NCBI GenBank assembly: GCA_015272515.1
Contig: JACYLN010000101.1
Location: 62,001-126,000, forward strand
DNA from: Leptolyngbyaceae cyanobacterium C42_A2020_001
GTDB taxonomy: Bacteria > Cyanobacteriota > Cyanobacteriia > Leptolyngbyales > Leptolyngbyaceae
Direction of reading: 5' to 3'
DNA: 64,000 nucleotides
The notes under the pieces were generated by a model. The model did no database searches. It was not told the origin of the DNA and saw nothing but the letters and a program-made list of their open reading frames with translations. Below, one piece after another: positions 6,619 to 16,116 of this stretch. Position numbers and translations under genes: made by a program. Within the stretch, counting starts at the first letter, position 1, and every line of letters begins with the position of its first letter.

Positions 6619-9600
6619 ATGCCCGCAATTCGTTTAAGCAGCCCCTACATCCAAACGTTTGATGCTTTGCTGGCATCGGGTTCTGGAACCTGGGTGAATG
6701 ATCCAGCGACCGATGGCGGCGTTGGGCTGGCTGGATGGTATACGGCTCGGACTGGCTCTGGTACTACGATCGCGGCAGATACAGGCTCCAATAATGCTGG
6801 CAATTTGTATAGTTATGGCTCGGCTGGCAGTAGCGATCGCGCATTGGGTTCGATTGGCTCTGGCAATGCCGCCGCAGGCAATTTCTTTTGGGGGGTGCGC
6901 CTGATCAACGACACCAGCAGCCTTCTTTCCGCGCTTACCATCAGCTACACCGGAGAGCAATGGCGCTATAGCGGCACAACCGCTGCCCAAACCGTTGATT
7001 TTCAGTATCAAATTGCAGCTACCAGCCTCACCGCTGGCACCTGGGTTGATTTCAATCCCCTCGATTTTGTCAGCCCCGTGATTTCAGGAACTACAGGTGC
7101 ACTCAACGGCAATGTTGCACCCAACCAGACGGCTCTTTCCACCACCTTGAGCGGGCTATCTCTGGCACCGGGGCAAGAAATTTGGCTGCGCTGGTCGGAT
7201 ATTGACCATCCTGGTAGTGATCAGGGTTTGGCGATTGATAATTTTTCTGTCTCTACCACCGTCACACCACCCTCAGGTGCAGGCATCACCGTGATCCAGT
7301 CGGGCGGCAGTACGGATGTGAACGAGCAGGGCGAAACTACTGATACCTACGCGATCGCCCTCAGCACCGTTCCCATTGCCCCCGTGAATATCACCATCAC
7401 TGCCGATGCTCAAACCGTGGTGAGTGTGGATGGGGTCAACTTCTCTAACTCCCGCAGCCTGACCCTGACCGATACCACGCCTGCAACTGTCACCGTCAGA
7501 GCGATCAATGACACACTGCAAGAAAGCTCTCCCCATGTCGGAGTCATTACTCACGCGATCGCCAGTGCCGATGCCGCCTACGCTGCCCTCACCCTTCCCA
7601 ACATCAACGTCAACATTCTGGATAACGATGTCGCGCTGCAACTCACCAAAATCAGCACGATTCAGGGTACTGGTTCTGCTGCAACGGCAGGCACCTTCAC
7701 CATCGAAGGCATTGTTGTAGGCGATTTCCCTGGTACTACTAACAATGGCTTCTACATTCAGGAAGAAGACGCGGATGCGGATGGTAACCCGCTGACCTCC
7801 GAAGGGATTTTTGTGAACTCCTCGGCGGCTGTGAACTTTGGCGATCGCGTGCGGATTACCGGAACCGTAGCGGAAAACTCCACTTCCCCCTCCTTCAACC
7901 AGGCAATCATTACCCCCACCAGCGCTGCCGATCTGGTCATCACTGGAACCGGATTGCAAAACCTGGTTACTCCCACCAACGTTGTGCTGGGAACAGATGC
8001 GGGCGAAACTCCCAACAACCAACTGGAACGTTACGAGGGAATGTTGGTGACCTTTGACCAGACCCTCACTGTCACCGAGACCTTTCAGCTAGGGCGATTT
8101 GGGCAAATTGCCCTGTCCTCCACAGGCATTCAACGCACTCCTACCGACTTTATTGACCCCAACGACAGTCCTGCATCTGGCACTAACTCTAGCGGCAGCA
8201 GCAACGTTGCAGCGGTCACTGCCCAACAAACTGCAAACGCCCAAAACCGCATTTTCCTGGACGACGGATTCAACAACTCGTTCCAATTCCCAACGCCTTA
8301 CGTTAACCGCACTCCAGGACAACCGGAAACGCTGCGAGTGGGCACTACAGTTGAAAGCTTGACCGGGGTGTTAGGGTTTGGTTTCAATGCCTATCGAGTT
8401 CAACGCAATCCTTACGATGCAGCGGATACTTTTAACCAACTGTATCCGCTGACCTTTAACTACGCTCCTCGTCCTGAAGCACCGCCTGTGGTGGGTGGGG
8501 ATGTGAAAGTGGCAAGTTTCAACGTCTTGAACTACTTCACGACTTTGAGCAACGGCTCAAACACTGCTAGAGGCGCAAACAGTCCGGCGGAATTTGAGCG
8601 ACAGCAAGCCAAGATTGTGGCAGCAATTACCCAACTGAACGCTGATGTGTTGGGCTTGATCGAAATTGAAAACAACGCTTCCACTGCCATCAGCAATTTG
8701 GTGGATGCTTTGAATGCAGTGGCAGGCGCAGGCACCTATGCCTTCATCGCGGATCCTGCTGGATATACCAGTCTGCCGGGTGGCATCGATGCCATTAAAG
8801 TTGGTTTCATCTACAAACCGGCTGTGGTGACTCCGGTGGGAGCCGCGATCGCCTCTGCGGATCTTGCCTTTGGCAGCGCCAGAGCACCGATCGCCCAAAC
8901 TTTCCAGACGAATGCTACGGGCGCAATCTTCACCCCGATCATTAACCACTTTAAGTCCAAGAGTTCTAGCGCCGGATTGTCGGGCGATGCCGATCAGGGT
9001 GATGGACAAGGACTCTCCAATGCGTCTCGGAAAGCACAGGCTGAAGCATTGTTGAACTTTGTCAACAACATTGTGATTCCACAATCTGGCGATGCCGACG
9101 TGATGCTATTGGGCGACTTCAACGCTTATGGCGAAGAAGACCCCATCGATATTTTGCGGACCGGTGGATATACCTTGCTGGAAACCAACCCCAGCTACAT
9201 TTTTGATGGGCAGGTGGGTTCGCTTGATCACGTGCTGGTCAGTCAGTCGTTAGTCAATCAGGTGGCTGGAGCTGAAACCTGGAATATCAACTCGCTAGAA
9301 CCCAACGTGCTGGATTACAACGACAACGTGCTGAATTCGGGCGAGAGCAGCAGCAACCCACCCCTCAACGACCCCACCCTCTACGCACCCGATCCCTTCC
9401 GCTCCTCTGACCATGATCCAGTGCTGGTCGGACTCAACCTCACCGTGGCAGGCGCAGGTCAAACCATCAACGGTACCCGCAATGCTGACAACCTGACAGG
9501 CACGGCTGGCAATGATACGATTCGTGGCAATGATGGCAACGACACGATTCGCGGTAACGATGGCAATGACATCATCGAAGGCGGACGGGGTGGCGACATC

Positions 9601-10323
9601 ATTTACGGTGGCTTTGGTAATGATCTACTGGCAGCCGATCGCAGCGATCGCTTTGATGATTTCGACGGCAGCGTCAGCGAACTCTACGGCGAAGCGGGCA
9701 ACGATACCCTGTTGGGCGGCAGTAAACCCGACCTGCTGAATGGTGGATTTGGCAACGATGTGCTGGATGGCAAAATCGGCAACGATACGGCAAACGGCGG
9801 TGCAGGCAACGACACGCTGTTCGGCAGTTTGGGCAACGATACCCTCAACGGCGGTGCCGACATTGACACGATTGATTACTCCGATCTGGTGTTCAACGGC
9901 GTGTTTGGCACGATCGCTGGACTAGATATCAACCTGGCAGCAGGCACCGCGAAACACTCCAGCACCAATAATGGTTTAGGTTCTACCGATACGCTAACGG
10001 GGATTGAGAACATCATCGGTACCAGCCGCAACGATCGCTTCATCGGCGATACCAATGACAACGTGATCAATGGTGGTGGGCAGGTTGGGCGCAGCGATCG
10101 CCAAACCGCCTTCACCGATCTCGATGGCGATGGTTACACCGTGATTGCCGACGTGGTGGAATACAGTGGCAACCGGGCAGACTTCCAGATTCTGTCGGGT
10201 GGGAGTGCCAGCAACTTCCGCATCACCGGAGCCGGAATCGGTACCGATACGCTGATCAACATCGAATTCTTGAAATTCAACGATGGCTTAATTGCTACAA
10301 CCGCTCTGTTTACAACGGTGTAA
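6619..10323 (+). CDS. Secreted RTX-type extracellular nuclease (ExeM/NucH-like)
   Basis: A 1,234-residue exoprotein without a signal peptide. In order: an N-terminal beta-rich module (1-215); a Calx-beta-like module (about 225-340); an OB-fold region as in ExeM/YhcR nucleases (about 340-610, with GFYIQEED); an endonuclease/exonuclease/phosphatase catalytic domain (about 630-935) with DVKVASFNVLNYF, the metal-binding Glu in LIEIEN, MLLGDFNAYGEEDP, SLDHVL and SDHDPVL; then RTX calcium-binding nonapeptides of the GNDTI/GGAGNDTL type (about 955-1090) and a C-terminal module. RTX repeats with no leader indicate type I secretion. The likely role is degradation of extracellular DNA for phosphate and nucleosides, or biofilm remodelling. 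The start has GAGG 9 nt upstream. It stands alone; no ABC/HlyD exporter is nearby. Confidence 0.9.
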   Translation: MPAIRLSSPYIQTFDALLASGSGTWVNDPATDGGVGLAGWYTARTGSGTTIAADTGSNNAGNLYSYGSAGSSDRALGSIGSGNAAAGNFFWGVRLINDTSSLLSALTISYTGEQWRYSGTTAAQTVDFQYQIAATSLTAGTWVDFNPLDFVSPVISGTTGALNGNVAPNQTALSTTLSGLSLAPGQEIWLRWSDIDHPGSDQGLAIDNFSVSTTVTPPSGAGITVIQSGGSTDVNEQGETTDTYAIALSTVPIAPVNITITADAQTVVSVDGVNFSNSRSLTLTDTTPATVTVRAINDTLQESSPHVGVITHAIASADAAYAALTLPNINVNILDNDVALQLTKISTIQGTGSAATAGTFTIEGIVVGDFPGTTNNGFYIQEEDADADGNPLTSEGIFVNSSAAVNFGDRVRITGTVAENSTSPSFNQAIITPTSAADLVITGTGLQNLVTPTNVVLGTDAGETPNNQLERYEGMLVTFDQTLTVTETFQLGRFGQIALSSTGIQRTPTDFIDPNDSPASGTNSSGSSNVAAVTAQQTANAQNRIFLDDGFNNSFQFPTPYVNRTPGQPETLRVGTTVESLTGVLGFGFNAYRVQRNPYDAADTFNQLYPLTFNYAPRPEAPPVVGGDVKVASFNVLNYFTTLSNGSNTARGANSPAEFERQQAKIVAAITQLNADVLGLIEIENNASTAISNLVDALNAVAGAGTYAFIADPAGYTSLPGGIDAIKVGFIYKPAVVTPVGAAIASADLAFGSARAPIAQTFQTNATGAIFTPIINHFKSKSSSAGLSGDADQGDGQGLSNASRKAQAEALLNFVNNIVIPQSGDADVMLLGDFNAYGEEDPIDILRTGGYTLLETNPSYIFDGQVGSLDHVLVSQSLVNQVAGAETWNINSLEPNVLDYNDNVLNSGESSSNPPLNDPTLYAPDPFRSSDHDPVLVGLNLTVAGAGQTINGTRNADNLTGTAGNDTIRGNDGNDTIRGNDGNDIIEGGRGGDIIYGGFGNDLLAADRSDRFDDFDGSVSELYGEAGNDTLLGGSKPDLLNGGFGNDVLDGKIGNDTANGGAGNDTLFGSLGNDTLNGGADIDTIDYSDLVFNGVFGTIAGLDINLAAGTAKHSSTNNGLGSTDTLTGIENIIGTSRNDRFIGDTNDNVINGGGQVGRSDRQTAFTDLDGDGYTVIADVVEYSGNRADFQILSGGSASNFRITGAGIGTDTLINIEFLKFNDGLIATTALFTTV

Positions 10324-10634: not shown

Positions 10635-11318
10635 ATGGTGACTGCAACCCCTCAGCCAAACTCCGCAAAATTCAAGAACCCTAAAAAGCATAACCACTAT
10701 GGGTTCCGCGACTTCTTCCAGTTCGACTCGCAAACTGGCACCATTCGCGACTGGAACGGTAGCCAGAACCTACTCACGACTGAGGATTTTATTATTGGCT
10801 TGGTCGAAGGGTTGGAAGAGGAAGTGGGCGATGCATCGGCTGCCATTATGTACACTATCGGCTGTGAATGGGGGCAGAAAGATGCATTTTTCTTTGAGAA
10901 GTGGTTTGAGAAAGAATTCGATCGCAACATCCGCCAAACCAACCTGCTATTCCTGCTCGAAACTTGGTGGTGGCCCTTCACTTCGCAAGGATGGGGACGT
11001 TGGGAAGTAGATATGGGCGATCGCAAACAAGGGTTCATGTTCATCAACGTCTTTGACTCTGCCGTAGCCCGGACGTTGGGGGATGTGGGCAAACCCGTGT
11101 GTTATCTCTACGCTGGATTATTTGCAGGCTTCTTCACGGAAATGGTAAGAAAGCAACTGAGCTGCATCGAGATTCAGTGCTACTCGATGGGTGAAACCTA
11201 CTGCAAATTCCTGCTGGGCAGTCAGGATCGGATTGATGCGGCTGCCTTCTGGTTAAACGAAGGCGCAACCGCCAGAGATATTGAAAAGCGCCTCCGCTCA
11301 GGAGATGTGTTGCGATGA
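10635..11318 (+). CDS. V4R-domain protein, Slr0144-like PSII assembly (PAP operon) protein
   Basis: A 227-residue soluble protein with a C-terminal V4R (4-vinyl reductase-like) domain, about residues 85-215. The Cys-rich core is CIEIQCYSMGETYCKF, which keeps the three cysteines typical of V4R sensors and small-molecule or metal binders. In Synechocystis the slr0144-slr0152 operon, required for efficient photosystem II assembly, starts with such a protein. The order here (V4R, small NWD protein, phycobilisome-like protein, V4R, kinase) mirrors slr0144-0145-0146-0147-0152. The stop overlaps the next start by 4 bp (ATGA), showing translational coupling. V4R identity is well supported; the PAP role follows from gene order and known biology, not from a direct motif. 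Confidence 0.8.
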   Translation: MVTATPQPNSAKFKNPKKHNHYGFRDFFQFDSQTGTIRDWNGSQNLLTTEDFIIGLVEGLEEEVGDASAAIMYTIGCEWGQKDAFFFEKWFEKEFDRNIRQTNLLFLLETWWWPFTSQGWGRWEVDMGDRKQGFMFINVFDSAVARTLGDVGKPVCYLYAGLFAGFFTEMVRKQLSCIEIQCYSMGETYCKFLLGSQDRIDAAAFWLNEGATARDIEKRLRSGDVLR

Positions 11319-11620
11319 GTACTCTTACCCTGCCTCACATGAACGGTTCTAGCACCCACAAACCTGCGGATGAATGGCTGCAATCTTCCGTTCAAAACTT
11401 TTTCTTGCGTTTGAACTGGGATGACACTCCACCTGATGCTGAAGCAGATGGCGCAACAGACGGGATAGATGAAATTCCTAGCCTGGAAATAAGTGTTTCT
11501 CGCTTCTTTGCATCATTCAATTGGGATAGCAATGCGATCGCCGCCGCTGTTCCTGTTGAGCTGCCAAAATCGGACAGCAAAGGGGATTTCACCCTAGACG
11601 ATTTCTCAGATTTATTCTGA
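11315..11620 (+). CDS. Small acidic protein with two FFxxxNWD repeats, Slr0145-like
   Basis: A 101-residue acidic protein in the second slot of the PAP-like operon, overlapping the V4R stop by 4 bp. It contains an internal duplication 35 residues apart: VQNFFLRLNWD at 26-36 and VSRFFASFNWD at 61-71. A third, weaker hydrophobic-acidic tail, FTLDDFSDLF, closes the protein. No membrane segment and no catalytic motif are visible. Such short aromatic-acidic repeats look like docking peptides for a larger partner; that function is my inference. Gene order suggests it is the equivalent of slr0145, itself of unknown biochemical role. Confidence 0.7.
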   Translation: MSTLTLPHMNGSSTHKPADEWLQSSVQNFFLRLNWDDTPPDAEADGATDGIDEIPSLEISVSRFFASFNWDSNAIAAAVPVELPKSDSKGDFTLDDFSDLF

Positions 11621-11666
11621 TCGCTACTCCCGCTTATCTCTTTCAACCTCTCCCCTTCCTGTGCCT

Positions 11667-12149
11667 ATGCATCCCCAAATTGAAGCTCTGTTTGATGAAG
11701 CAGAAAGCCGTTACCTCAAACCTGAAGAACTGGCAGTCCTGAGTCAATATGTTGAATCATTGCCCGCCCGGTTGATGACCTACCGCACATTGCGCGATCG
11801 CGAACTCGATGTCATGCAGCAAGTTGCCGATCACCTCCAGACCGAATTGCCTCACGAAAAGATTGACCATTTAGAGCGGGCGATCAAAGACGCATTGTTG
11901 ACCCTACGCTATTGCGCTATGGGCATGTTGTTAAACGACGAAAAATTTGTCAAAGACCGACTGATGAGCTGGCTAAACGGCACCCTTAGTCTCTATAACA
12001 GCCAGACGATTAATACTGTGCTTTATCGCTTAATGCACCAACGTCTAACTGAGGTATTAGGCACTCAAGCCATGAGTTTTCTCACGCCTCAGCTCCTCAT
12101 GGCACAAACCCTGCTTCACGAGAAAGCAACCCAACCGTCTGTAAAGTAA
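11667..12149 (+). CDS. Phycobilisome-like (globin-fold) protein lacking the bilin cysteine, Slr0146-like
   Basis: A 160-residue protein resembling allophycocyanin-type subunits in length and helical pattern. The segment RAIKDALLTLRYCAMGMLL (71-89) aligns with the phycobiliprotein stretch that normally reads ACLRDxxxxLRY. The chromophore-binding Cys-84 position is Ala72 here, so the protein probably cannot carry a bilin at that site; a Cys three residues after LR (RYC) is in a different helix position. I start at ATG 11667; a GTG at 11661 would add two residues. It sits 46 bp after the NWD-repeat gene in the PAP-like operon, matching slr0146. It may use the globin fold as a scaffold or bind a different tetrapyrrole. 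Confidence 0.7.
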   Translation: MHPQIEALFDEAESRYLKPEELAVLSQYVESLPARLMTYRTLRDRELDVMQQVADHLQTELPHEKIDHLERAIKDALLTLRYCAMGMLLNDEKFVKDRLMSWLNGTLSLYNSQTINTVLYRLMHQRLTEVLGTQAMSFLTPQLLMAQTLLHEKATQPSVK

Positions 12150-12216
12150 TTCTGGTCTAGATCCTCAAACTCCCATTTTTGCCTTTCTATCTGCCATCCC
12201 TATTCCCCATTTTTCT

Positions 12217-12873
12217 ATGATTTCCGTTGCTGATTTATTAACCAATAACCGCATTCCCGGAAACTACTTTGCTACTGACGTTTACGTGCGAAGTGATCTG
12301 GAATTGGGCTTGCTAGAAAACCGTCGGGGCGATCGCCTCCTGGCACTCCCAGAAACTTTAATTCAAGCCATCTACGTTGGGTTAGATAAAGAAACTGGAC
12401 AGGCAACGCGTCTGGTGTTGTTCAACTGTGGCAAATGGTGGGGAAAAAACTTTTACACCCGCTTTCGAGAAGAACTAACCGATTATTACGGTCAGGCGCT
12501 AGCAGATATGACAATGGCAGAGTTTTTGCAATGTCTTCAACAATGCTGGATAACACATGGTTGGGGCAAAGTTGAGCTGGATCATCAGTATCAAAATCGT
12601 GGGTTTTTGGTTATCAAAACCTGGAACTCTCCGTTTGCTGGTCATGCACCCAAAATCAACCGTCCAGTGTGTTACTTTGAAGCGGGCATTCTCAGTGCTT
12701 TCTTTAGTCAATTAACTGGACGAGATTTGCATTGTATTCAAACGGCTTGTGAATCCTTAGGCGCAGAGGCTAACCGATTTGTGATTGGGCTGGAGAAGCG
12801 GCTTGAACCTGCCAATGTCATGGTTGAACAGCAAGCCGATCACGATACCATTATGAAAAAGTTGTGCCCTTGA
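12217..12873 (+). CDS. Second V4R-domain protein, Slr0147-like
   Basis: A 218-residue paralogue of the first V4R protein in this operon. The shared architecture includes WWGKNFYTRF, a central HGWGKVELDHQYQNRGF matching QGWGRWEVD in the first copy, then PVCYFEAGILSAFF and the V4R Cys motif CIQTACESLGAEANRF. The third cysteine of that motif is replaced here (Asn instead of Cys before RF), so the two paralogues are not equivalent in ligand chemistry. It follows the phycobilisome-like gene by 67 bp of pyrimidine-rich DNA. By order it corresponds to slr0147 of the PSII assembly operon. A direct enzymatic vinyl reductase role is unlikely given what is known for V4R sensors. Confidence 0.75.
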   Translation: MISVADLLTNNRIPGNYFATDVYVRSDLELGLLENRRGDRLLALPETLIQAIYVGLDKETGQATRLVLFNCGKWWGKNFYTRFREELTDYYGQALADMTMAEFLQCLQQCWITHGWGKVELDHQYQNRGFLVIKTWNSPFAGHAPKINRPVCYFEAGILSAFFSQLTGRDLHCIQTACESLGAEANRFVIGLEKRLEPANVMVEQQADHDTIMKKLCP

Positions 12874-12956
12874 GATTGATTTAAGTTTTAACCTTTGAGT
12901 GCTCCCAACCTTAAAACTCAAAATTTGCTGTTCCCATAGCTCGTCAGGAACTGAAG

Positions 12957-14951
12957 GTGTCCAATTTCCTTGCAAGAGAGCTAAGTCGCTCCAAGTATCG
13001 ATTGCTTGGACTCGTTGGGCAGGGGCAGTTTGGTCGTGTTTATTGTGCAAGCCACCGCAAAACAGGTCGCTTAGTGGCACTGAAAGAACTGGACCGCGAT
13101 CGCTTCTCAACGCACAAATTTTTACGAGAATTGCGATTTTTGCTAAGTTTACAGCACCCTAACATCGTCACCTGTCAAGCAATGGAGCAGACTGCCACAG
13201 GTCGCTATCTCGTGATGGACTACTGTGAAGGCGGCACCCTGCGACAGGTGTTGGATGAAGAAATGCACCTGCATCCCGCACAAAGCCTAAACCTAGTGAC
13301 CCAAATTCTGGCAGGGCTAGCACACGCTCACCAACGGGGCATTGTCCATTGCGACATTAAGCCAGAAAACATTCTGCTAACAGTTCATGCCAGCGGTTGG
13401 ACGGCGCGAATCTCCGACTTCGGAATTGCTCGCCTGAGTCAGGAAATGGCTGCTCAAACCGACTTCAGTAATACCGGATCGCCCGCATATATGGCTCCAG
13501 AGCGATTTTACGGTCAGTACTCGATCGCCTCCGACCTCTATGCCGTTGGGGTTCTATTGTTTGAACTCTTAGCGGGGTATCGTCCTTTTTCAGGGGTACC
13601 CGGTGAGCTGATGTCTGCCCATCTAAATCAAACAGTTAAAATTCCTGAGTCCCTTCCGGCTGAAGCGCAAACAATTATTCTGAAGGCGCTGCAAAAGCTG
13701 CCTGCTCGTCGATTTCGCTCTGCTGAAGAAATGCTTGAGCAGATACAAGCCTTTGCCAACCGGGCTGAAGCATGGTTTAGCCCAACATGGTCATTAACAA
13801 CCTTGTTGCGTCCGACTCAATTTTTCCCTGCTTGCGACTTGCAGCACGAGTATCAGGAAAACCTGACTGCGCCGATTTATCGCCTGATGGGTGAACAACG
13901 ATGTTTCTCCCACGCAAGAGATCCCTCTATCGAAGAGATTGACTTTAAGCAGGAGTTCGGTCTGCAATCAATCAACTTAGAAAGATGTATTTTTCGGGCT
14001 GTTGGAAATCAGGTTGGCTACCAGCTTTATCCTGTGGAGAGTTGCGATCGCCACACGAATGACTCCCCTGAAACAGTTAAGCCATTACCCGTTGCCAGCA
14101 TCCGCCTTCCAGCACCCATCAGCAATTTGGTCGCTCATCCGTTGGGGTGTTTTGCTGCGACTCAGCAAGCAGTGTATTGGCTAGCCGCTGGTTTATTTAA
14201 TGCAGAAACCACTCAGCCTGGGCAAACTGTGCTGCCGCAATCGCTCTACCCTCCCGTTGTTTCTCCCCTGATGCCACAGCTAATCGCTCAACTCGACCGA
14301 GAGATGATCGCTGCTATTCCACCAAACGGCAATTGGATTGCCACAGCAACCCACGAGACAGAGCGATCGCGAAGCCAAATTAGCATCTGGAATTTAAGCC
14401 ACCTACAACCCTTTAAGCCACAAACTTCGTTTTATACAGCGCCATGTTTCCAGCTTTTAGCATTAGATGCACGTCACATTGCAGCTTTCTCGCACCTCAC
14501 GGATTCAACCTCCAAAGCTTGCATCACAGGCGTTTTAATTGAGATTTTTACTCGCAGAGGCACCTTGTTTGGTTCGCTCAAATTGCCCATTCCTTTACGC
14601 CAAGTTGTAGTAACGCCAACTCCGTATCGGTTGCTGGCAATGGAGCCAAGTTATCCAAACTCACTATTACGGCTAGATCTTAAACCGTTGCGAATTCAAC
14701 GACTTGGTTTGGCGATCGCTCCCAAGCTACTAGCAACCACCATCTGGGGTTGTGCCCTTATGGATGACAACGGACAGATTGTTTTGCTAGATACCTATGG
14801 GCAAAATCTGGGGCAAATTCAGGGTCCCTCTCAGCCAACAGCGCTGTCATTCCTGGATGCTTATCGCCTACTAATTAGTACCTGGAATTCTGAACAAGGC
14901 AGGTTGTATGTAGTGAACTTACAACAGCACGACCTCGACATTTTGTTTTGA
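12957..14951 (+). CDS. spkG: Serine/threonine protein kinase, SpkG-like, with C-terminal propeller-like domain
   Basis: A 664-residue protein. The N-terminal Hanks-type kinase domain (about 14-270) has the P-loop GQGQFG, catalytic Lys43 in VALKEL, the HRD-equivalent HCDIKPEN near 131-138, DFG near 154 and APE in the activation segment. The Arg of HRD is Cys, so activation may not need loop phosphorylation. The C-terminal 400 residues contain repeated beta-strand blocks (NWIATATHE, QISIWNLS) suggesting a WD/propeller-like sensor; no membrane segment is obvious. The start is GTG. Position at the end of the PAP-like operon matches slr0152/spkG, the last gene of the Synechocystis operon. It likely regulates photosynthetic complex assembly or stress response; no substrate can be deduced. 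Confidence 0.85.
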   Translation: MSNFLARELSRSKYRLLGLVGQGQFGRVYCASHRKTGRLVALKELDRDRFSTHKFLRELRFLLSLQHPNIVTCQAMEQTATGRYLVMDYCEGGTLRQVLDEEMHLHPAQSLNLVTQILAGLAHAHQRGIVHCDIKPENILLTVHASGWTARISDFGIARLSQEMAAQTDFSNTGSPAYMAPERFYGQYSIASDLYAVGVLLFELLAGYRPFSGVPGELMSAHLNQTVKIPESLPAEAQTIILKALQKLPARRFRSAEEMLEQIQAFANRAEAWFSPTWSLTTLLRPTQFFPACDLQHEYQENLTAPIYRLMGEQRCFSHARDPSIEEIDFKQEFGLQSINLERCIFRAVGNQVGYQLYPVESCDRHTNDSPETVKPLPVASIRLPAPISNLVAHPLGCFAATQQAVYWLAAGLFNAETTQPGQTVLPQSLYPPVVSPLMPQLIAQLDREMIAAIPPNGNWIATATHETERSRSQISIWNLSHLQPFKPQTSFYTAPCFQLLALDARHIAAFSHLTDSTSKACITGVLIEIFTRRGTLFGSLKLPIPLRQVVVTPTPYRLLAMEPSYPNSLLRLDLKPLRIQRLGLAIAPKLLATTIWGCALMDDNGQIVLLDTYGQNLGQIQGPSQPTALSFLDAYRLLISTWNSEQGRLYVVNLQQHDLDILF

Positions 14952-15005: not shown

Positions 15006-15719
15006 ATGTTCTTCGCTTGGTTAACTCCCAGCCACTTCATCATGCTGGGAATGTTGTTTACGTTTGCGATCGCCCATAGTGGTTTAGCGGCATTGCGCCC
15101 GTGGGCAGAAAAACGCATCGGTGCCCGCCTGTATCGAGTCTTCTTTGCGCTGGTGAGCCTGCCCCTTGCCACAATTTTGATCATTTATTTCTTCAATCAT
15201 CGGTACGATGGATTGCAACTTTGGCAACTTCAGGGAATACCAGGCATTCAATCCATTGTGTGGGTGCTTTCAGCAATTTCTTTTCTGTTCCTCTATCCCG
15301 CAACCTTTAATCTGCTAGAAATCGCTGCTATTCAAAAGCCTCAGGTGCATCTTTACGAAACGGGGATCATTCGCATTACCCGACACCCCCAGATGGTAGG
15401 GCAAGTGATTTGGTGTGTTGCCCATGCTCTCTGGCTTGGAACCACCTTTATGGTAGTAACCTGCGCCGGATTAATCTTGCATCATCTGTTTGGCGTGTGG
15501 CATGGCGATCGCCGCTGGCTTGCTCGCTATGGTGAAGCCTTTGAAGCCGTTAAAGCGAGAACTTCTGTCCTCCCGTTTCTAGCGATTGTTCAGGGAAAGC
15601 AAGATTTGAAGCTAGGAGAGTTTTTACGCCCCGCCTATGTAGGAGTAGCCATTTTTATTGGTCTACTTTGGTGGGCACATCCCATTTTGATTCGTGCAAC
15701 GGGGAGTGTTGGCTGGTAG
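15006..15719 (+). CDS. NnrU family membrane protein (15-cis-zeta-carotene isomerase-like)
   Basis: A 237-residue integral membrane protein with about six or seven hydrophobic segments and the NnrU-family motifs FAIAHSGLAALRPW, RITRHPQMVG and HHLFGVWHGDRRW. The plant enzyme Z-ISO, which isomerises 9,15,9'-tri-cis-zeta-carotene with a heme cofactor, belongs to this family. The conserved histidines seen here are candidates for heme ligation. A carotenoid role in the thylakoid is plausible for a cyanobacterium, but NnrU proteins elsewhere are linked to nitrogen oxide metabolism, so Z-ISO is a family-level guess. It lies 54 bp after the kinase gene and may belong to the same transcript. The upstream spacer is a CCCTATTCCC tract, without a Shine-Dalgarno sequence. 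Confidence 0.8.
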   Translation: MFFAWLTPSHFIMLGMLFTFAIAHSGLAALRPWAEKRIGARLYRVFFALVSLPLATILIIYFFNHRYDGLQLWQLQGIPGIQSIVWVLSAISFLFLYPATFNLLEIAAIQKPQVHLYETGIIRITRHPQMVGQVIWCVAHALWLGTTFMVVTCAGLILHHLFGVWHGDRRWLARYGEAFEAVKARTSVLPFLAIVQGKQDLKLGEFLRPAYVGVAIFIGLLWWAHPILIRATGSVGW

Positions 15720-15780: not shown

Positions 15781-16116
15781 ATGAATAAGCAATCGCTAGA
15801 GCAAGCAATTCTGGAATCTTCTGAACCCGTTTTAGTCCATTTTGGTGCTCCCTGGTGTGGTCCCTGCCGAATGATTGAACCCCTGCTTTCGCGATTTCAA
15901 TCTGAGTTTGGGGCATCGCTGAAGCTGATTGGGATCAATGCTGACGAAAACCTAAAGCTTGCAAGCCAGTATCGTATCACAACGCTTCCCACACTCCTAT
16001 TTTTTGAGGGTGGGAATTTGCTGCATCGCATGGAAGGAATGTATAAACGGGATGCACTATGGGCAGAATTAACAAAACTTCTGCCTCAATCTCTACAAAC
16101 CACAGCTCCCAATTAA
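15781..16116 (+). CDS. Thioredoxin
   Basis: A 111-residue single-domain thioredoxin with the canonical WCGPC active site at residues 25-29 and the cis-Pro loop TTLPTLLFF. It reduces protein disulfides in the cytosol using thioredoxin reductase or ferredoxin-thioredoxin reductase. I start at the ATG 15781; a longer frame reading back into the NnrU gene is not needed by the family length. It follows the NnrU-like gene by 61 bp. The N-terminus lacks a signal or membrane anchor. Which of the cyanobacterial types (m, x, y) it belongs to cannot be decided without a tree, though the sequence is not the standard m-type. Confidence 0.9.
   Translation: MNKQSLEQAILESSEPVLVHFGAPWCGPCRMIEPLLSRFQSEFGASLKLIGINADENLKLASQYRITTLPTLLFFEGGNLLHRMEGMYKRDALWAELTKLLPQSLQTTAPN

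Follow-up and report, generated by a model that had tools for sequence, protein, structure and literature searches.

The five genes at positions 10635-14951 of the window are the ordinary split form of the PAP operon, a layout that is very common among cyanobacteria. The frequencies of the layouts across the class therefore make the nine-gene operon of Synechocystis the exception, an unusual form, and this puts right what had been inferred from a single model organism. We consider it probable, at roughly 0.8, that a single PAP/BBAG module is encoded at two loci in this genome, the V4R block in the window and an Fe-S/BBAG gene pair on another contig. The window is the whole stretch of DNA that was analysed, 64,000 nt from Leptolyngbyaceae cyanobacterium C42_A2020_001 (GCA_015272515.1, contig JACYLN010000101.1, positions 62,001-126,000, forward strand); the genome (G000) is 99.98% complete, with 5.55 Mb in 149 contigs. 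The block and the two conserved neighbours that follow it are:

10635..11318, + strand: V4R-A, slr0144 orthologue, 227 aa (Pfam V4R, 8.5e-21)
11315..11620, + strand: NWD protein, slr0145-type, 101 aa (family alignment; no Pfam match)
11661..12149, + strand: phycobilisome-like globin, slr0146-type, 162 aa, GTG start (Pfam PF00502, Phycobilisome, 1.9e-9)
12217..12873, + strand: V4R-B, slr0147 orthologue, 218 aa (Pfam V4R, 8.6e-19)
12957..14951, + strand: SpkG, slr0152 orthologue, Ser/Thr kinase, 664 aa, GTG start (Pfam Pkinase, 4.3e-55)
15006..15719, + strand: NnrU-family membrane protein, 54 bp 3' of SpkG (Pfam NnrU, 1.3e-46)
15781..16116, + strand: thioredoxin, with NnrU upstream of it (Pfam Thioredoxin, 1.3e-23)

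The five block genes lie head to tail, with gaps of -4, 40, 67 and 83 bp in order, the first being the 4 bp by which the NWD gene overlaps V4R-A. This spacing is compatible with a single transcript, and the gene layout suggests that the block is probably one transcription unit, which may extend into the NnrU and thioredoxin genes. NnrU lies immediately 3' of SpkG in 36 of 100 loci (the locus sets overlap), with thioredoxin next in 35 of the 36, so that the order SpkG-NnrU-thioredoxin is found in 35 of the 100 loci in which SpkG comes after V4R-B. The block genes are under coding constraint. V4R-A is 98.7% identical to that of G002, a closed congeneric genome, and the differences between the two blocks fall mostly at third codon positions, those in V4R-A being distributed 5/2/97 by codon position. 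Across the class, V4R-A homologues are found down to 52% identity, and in nearly all of the loci read, relatives of the slr0146-type gene adjoin V4R genes and V4R-B comes after the slr0146-type gene.

The PAP operon slr0144-slr0152 of Synechocystis sp. PCC 6803 goes back to Wegener et al. 2008, as that work is cited in PMC4853703 and PMC13326532. For orthology, a genus with the slr0144-slr0152 gene order, represented by two genomes (loci L176 and L177), served as a stand-in for Synechocystis itself. The order in both is V4R-A, slr0146-type, V4R-B, Fe-S, globin, plant-type ferredoxin, TPR protein and SpkG. V4R-A and the slr0146-type gene are ~0.4 kb apart, and this gap is the expected slr0145 site, where an slr0145-type gene was not separately matched. 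When the reference SpkG is compared with the window genome, the best match is the window kinase (57% over the kinase domain, E 4.6e-96), and the match also covers the C-terminal domain; the next kinase in the genome is at 31%. The sequence-only reading had equated the order V4R, NWD, phycobilisome-like, V4R, SpkG with slr0144-0145-0146-0147-0152, and the ORFs, the Pfam matches and the reference loci bear this out. Sequence comparison also speaks against the idea that these are not orthologues of the Synechocystis genes, as they match loci with the slr0144-slr0152 order and SpkG is the best match in its own genome across both domains. The window thus has the same slr0144, 0145, 0146, 0147 and 0152 orthologues as the Synechocystis PAP operon, in the same order and orientation. 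The two V4R genes flank the slr0145- and slr0146-type genes, as in the PAP operon, and SpkG is the last PAP-type gene, followed on the same strand by NnrU and thioredoxin; spkG is likewise the final gene of the Synechocystis operon (PMC11863333).

Where, then, are the four genes that are missing from between V4R-B and SpkG? Their absence had been claimed correctly: in the window, SpkG comes after V4R-B with no gene of the ferredoxin, slr0149 or slr0151 type in between. In Synechocystis, slr0148 is Fdx5, a [2Fe-2S] protein closer to the bacterial than to the plant type, and slr0150 is Fdx4 (PMC7363133). Unlike the Synechocystis operon, the window genome carries its slr0148 and slr0149 types at a second locus, L084 on contig C21, rather than inside the operon. 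The Fe-S gene (L084:6659-7144, 161 aa) is intact and retains C37, C43, C46 and C82, the cysteines that are invariant in the alignment; the adjoining slr0149-type globin gene, or BBAG (L084:7411-7884), is also intact, and just downstream of the pair is an apparent alanyl-tRNA synthetase gene. On its left (L084:2900-6439) the pair is flanked by a kinase, a LysR regulator and a 286-aa ORF with no Pfam match, a flank common to joined and split genomes. With the LysR gene and another kinase beside it, the pair sits where many relatives carry the joined version. Unlike Synechocystis again, the window genome was found to hold neither a dedicated slr0150-type ferredoxin, the closest match (57%) having an ordinary PetF-type motif, nor a full-length slr0151, matches to which are essentially confined to the TPR repeats.

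Two further observations concern the region upstream of V4R-A. In the window, the place held by the Fe-S/BBAG pair in joined relatives is occupied by a 1234-aa ORF (6619-10323) that reads by eye as a secreted endonuclease carrying NxGNDxL calcium-binding repeats. Several relatives have a divergent plant-type ferredoxin (CKQGxCSAC) upstream of V4R-A (L039:5310-5645, L041:5684-6049, L042:9060-9413, L050:2157-2495, and also L096); as a candidate for the moved ferredoxin it was rejected, since the window genome has no close copy.

The survey of the operon across cyanobacteria that the sequence-only reading had proposed shows how closely the two halves keep company. V4R-A is found in 164 of the 242 genomes of the class, five of these calls being weak (about 1e-22 to 1e-79) and possibly V4R-B or remnants, and the Fe-S gene is also found in 164. 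By-eye comparison of the two lists gives 163 genomes in common, a raw count that ignores kinship and is confounded by shared ancestry. The exceptions are G161, with V4R-A only, and the fragmented genome G087, with the Fe-S gene only. It follows from this overlap that Fdx5 is not optional. BBAG is present in 158 of the 242 genomes and SpkG in 154, whereas Slr0151 is restricted to 28, in families whose read loci have the Fe-S gene downstream of V4R-B. A testable prediction is that selection keeps the V4R pair, the Fe-S protein, BBAG and usually SpkG together, but not Slr0150 or Slr0151.

Placement is far more variable. Among the 135 genomes in which both genes could be placed, the Fe-S gene is upstream of V4R-A in 59 and unlinked in 57; it is downstream of V4R-B on the same strand, the Synechocystis position, in 17, a count that leaves out a few more genomes such as L176-L181, and on the other strand in 2. 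The figure of 57 is an upper bound because many of these genomes are drafts, and some cases may reflect breaks in the assembly, as in G072, where V4R-A and the Fe-S gene are each near the start of a contig; in 13 the separation is proven by a single contig that carries the two genes at a large distance. SpkG is directly 3' of V4R-B in 29 genomes of the upstream type and in 48 of the 57 unlinked ones; in these 48 its distance from V4R-A is 1.7-3.2 kb, compared with 2.3 kb in the window. The layout of the window is therefore found in up to 48 of 135 genomes, versus ~17 that are Synechocystis-like. Over a 52-genome V4R tree, gene arrangement has changed at least 7 times, and the breakpoint varies, some genomes keeping BBAG beside V4R-A with the Fe-S gene alone elsewhere.

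One might think that the block and the Fe-S/BBAG pair are two independent systems whose shared distribution is inherited baggage. That the two are unlinked in as many as 57 of 135 genomes is in keeping with such independence, as is the position of SpkG, apart from the V4R genes in many genomes. The near-perfect joint presence and absence makes it an unlikely explanation, however, for it extends to the V4R-free members of families f1, f13 and f16, which are also without the Fe-S gene. A second possibility is a true minimal PAP unit, in which five proteins are enough and neither the ferredoxins nor slr0149 is needed; the sequence-only reading had called the operon compact and spoken of a minimal unit. 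None of the four genes is in the block, most of the class lacks slr0151, and the window genome yielded no dedicated slr0150. The slr0148 and slr0149 types are nevertheless retained elsewhere in the same genome, the slr0148 type accompanies V4R-A almost without exception, which already contradicts dispensability for that gene, and the layout is among the commonest rather than a pared-down one; we regard a minimal unit as very improbable. The suggestion that the ferredoxins are optional or moved has to be divided: "moved" holds for slr0148 and slr0149, intact on contig C21, while "optional" fails for the slr0148-type Fe-S gene (with V4R-A in 163 of 164 genomes) and fits slr0150 and slr0151. Finally, 149 contigs might invite the thought that the separation is an artefact of draft assembly, but the closer contig end is ~69 kb away from V4R-A (contig C97) and ~16 kb away from the Fe-S gene (C21), and the closed genome G002 has the block and the pair 2.13 Mb apart with the same flanks, so that this explanation has next to no chance of being right.

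How does a module at two loci compare with the described BBAG cluster? The paper that describes it, PMC10151467, is Rockwell and Lagarias, PNAS 2023. A cluster descended from pre-PcyA is described as consisting of Fe-S, two V4R and globin genes, and cyanobacterial BBAG clusters as variable, lost in many genomes and duplicated in others, with genes that are adjacent in Synechocystis often absent from them (PMC10151467). The window genome likewise has the Fe-S protein, two V4R proteins and the BBAG globin; unlike in that cluster, the genes are not together, the V4R block being on one contig and the Fe-S/BBAG pair on another. The variability of the cluster is thus already published (PMC10151467). 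The present analysis adds counts of how often the two halves co-occur although they are physically separated, the finding that Slr0151 is restricted, and the Trp that most BBAGs have in place of Cys84. These are refinements rather than a new system.

We infer for the two-locus module that the products of the V4R block and of the Fe-S/BBAG pair still act together in trans. Fdx5 would be the electron carrier, and SpkG, by analogy with Synechocystis, a kinase acting on Fdx5. The catalytic residues K43, D133, K135 and N138 and the DFG motif of SpkG are invariant in the alignment. Its AlphaFold model, of moderate confidence (mean pLDDT 69, pTM 0.44), has a long all-beta C-terminal domain; a Foldseek search with the model, directed at the C-terminal fold with a propeller in mind, gave only kinases among the matches listed. 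In Synechocystis, a spkG mutant no longer shows Fdx5 phosphorylation, according to PMC11863333 in its citation of Angeleri 2018, and PMC11863333 also reports that direct demonstration of SpkG kinase activity is lacking even in Synechocystis. The title of Angeleri et al. 2018, as cited, names an interplay with Slr0151. SpkG occurs in 154 genomes; Slr0151 is present in 28 of them and the Fe-S gene missing from 5, which leaves ~121 holding SpkG and Fdx5 without Slr0151; if the SpkG-Fdx5 pairing is conserved, Slr0151 is no general requirement for it. Part of the operon's PSII repair literature refers to a gene, slr0151, that only a minority of cyanobacteria possess, the Synechocystis-type group among them.

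In the family alignment, the NWD protein shows the motif VxxFFxxxNW[DE] twice and has a conserved TLDDFSDLF at its C-terminus. The number of repeat motifs is about 5 at L178:7224-7946, and a search of the window genome for a second NWD-like protein or FF-NW motif found none. These motifs point to a small repeat-motif protein that might serve as an adaptor in the module. Slr0151-type proteins share an invariant Leu-Phe near the C-terminus.

V4R domains bind small hydrophobic molecules, and the V4R pair is treated as the product of a duplication (PMC13326532). Such binding fits a candidate role in pigment handling: the V4R proteins, together with the globin-fold proteins, may bind ligands of the chlorophyll, heme or bilin type while photosystems are assembled and repaired. 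PDB sequence searches with V4R-A and the slr0146-type globin gave weak matches only. Among 74 BBAGs from the fetched loci, the bilin-attachment position (phycobiliprotein Cys84) is Trp in 55, Cys in 18 and Phe in 1; the Cys cases include the Synechocystis-type loci, and the BBAG of the window genome has Trp. With Trp at this position, covalent bilin attachment there looks impossible in most lineages, though the authors of PMC10151467 may not require the Cys. These considerations can be drawn together in a fuller version of the two-locus reading, which we hold as tentative and slightly doubtful: a conserved two-part module whose halves part and rejoin yet are co-inherited, in which SpkG would act on Fdx5 in trans, mostly without Slr0151, and in which most BBAGs, with Trp at the Cys84 position, would bind their ligand non-covalently or bind none. 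At L085:5871-7189 on contig C115, the window genome has a further phycobilisome-like globin of 157 aa, which adjoins a gene that by eye resembles one for a phycobilisome linker polypeptide.
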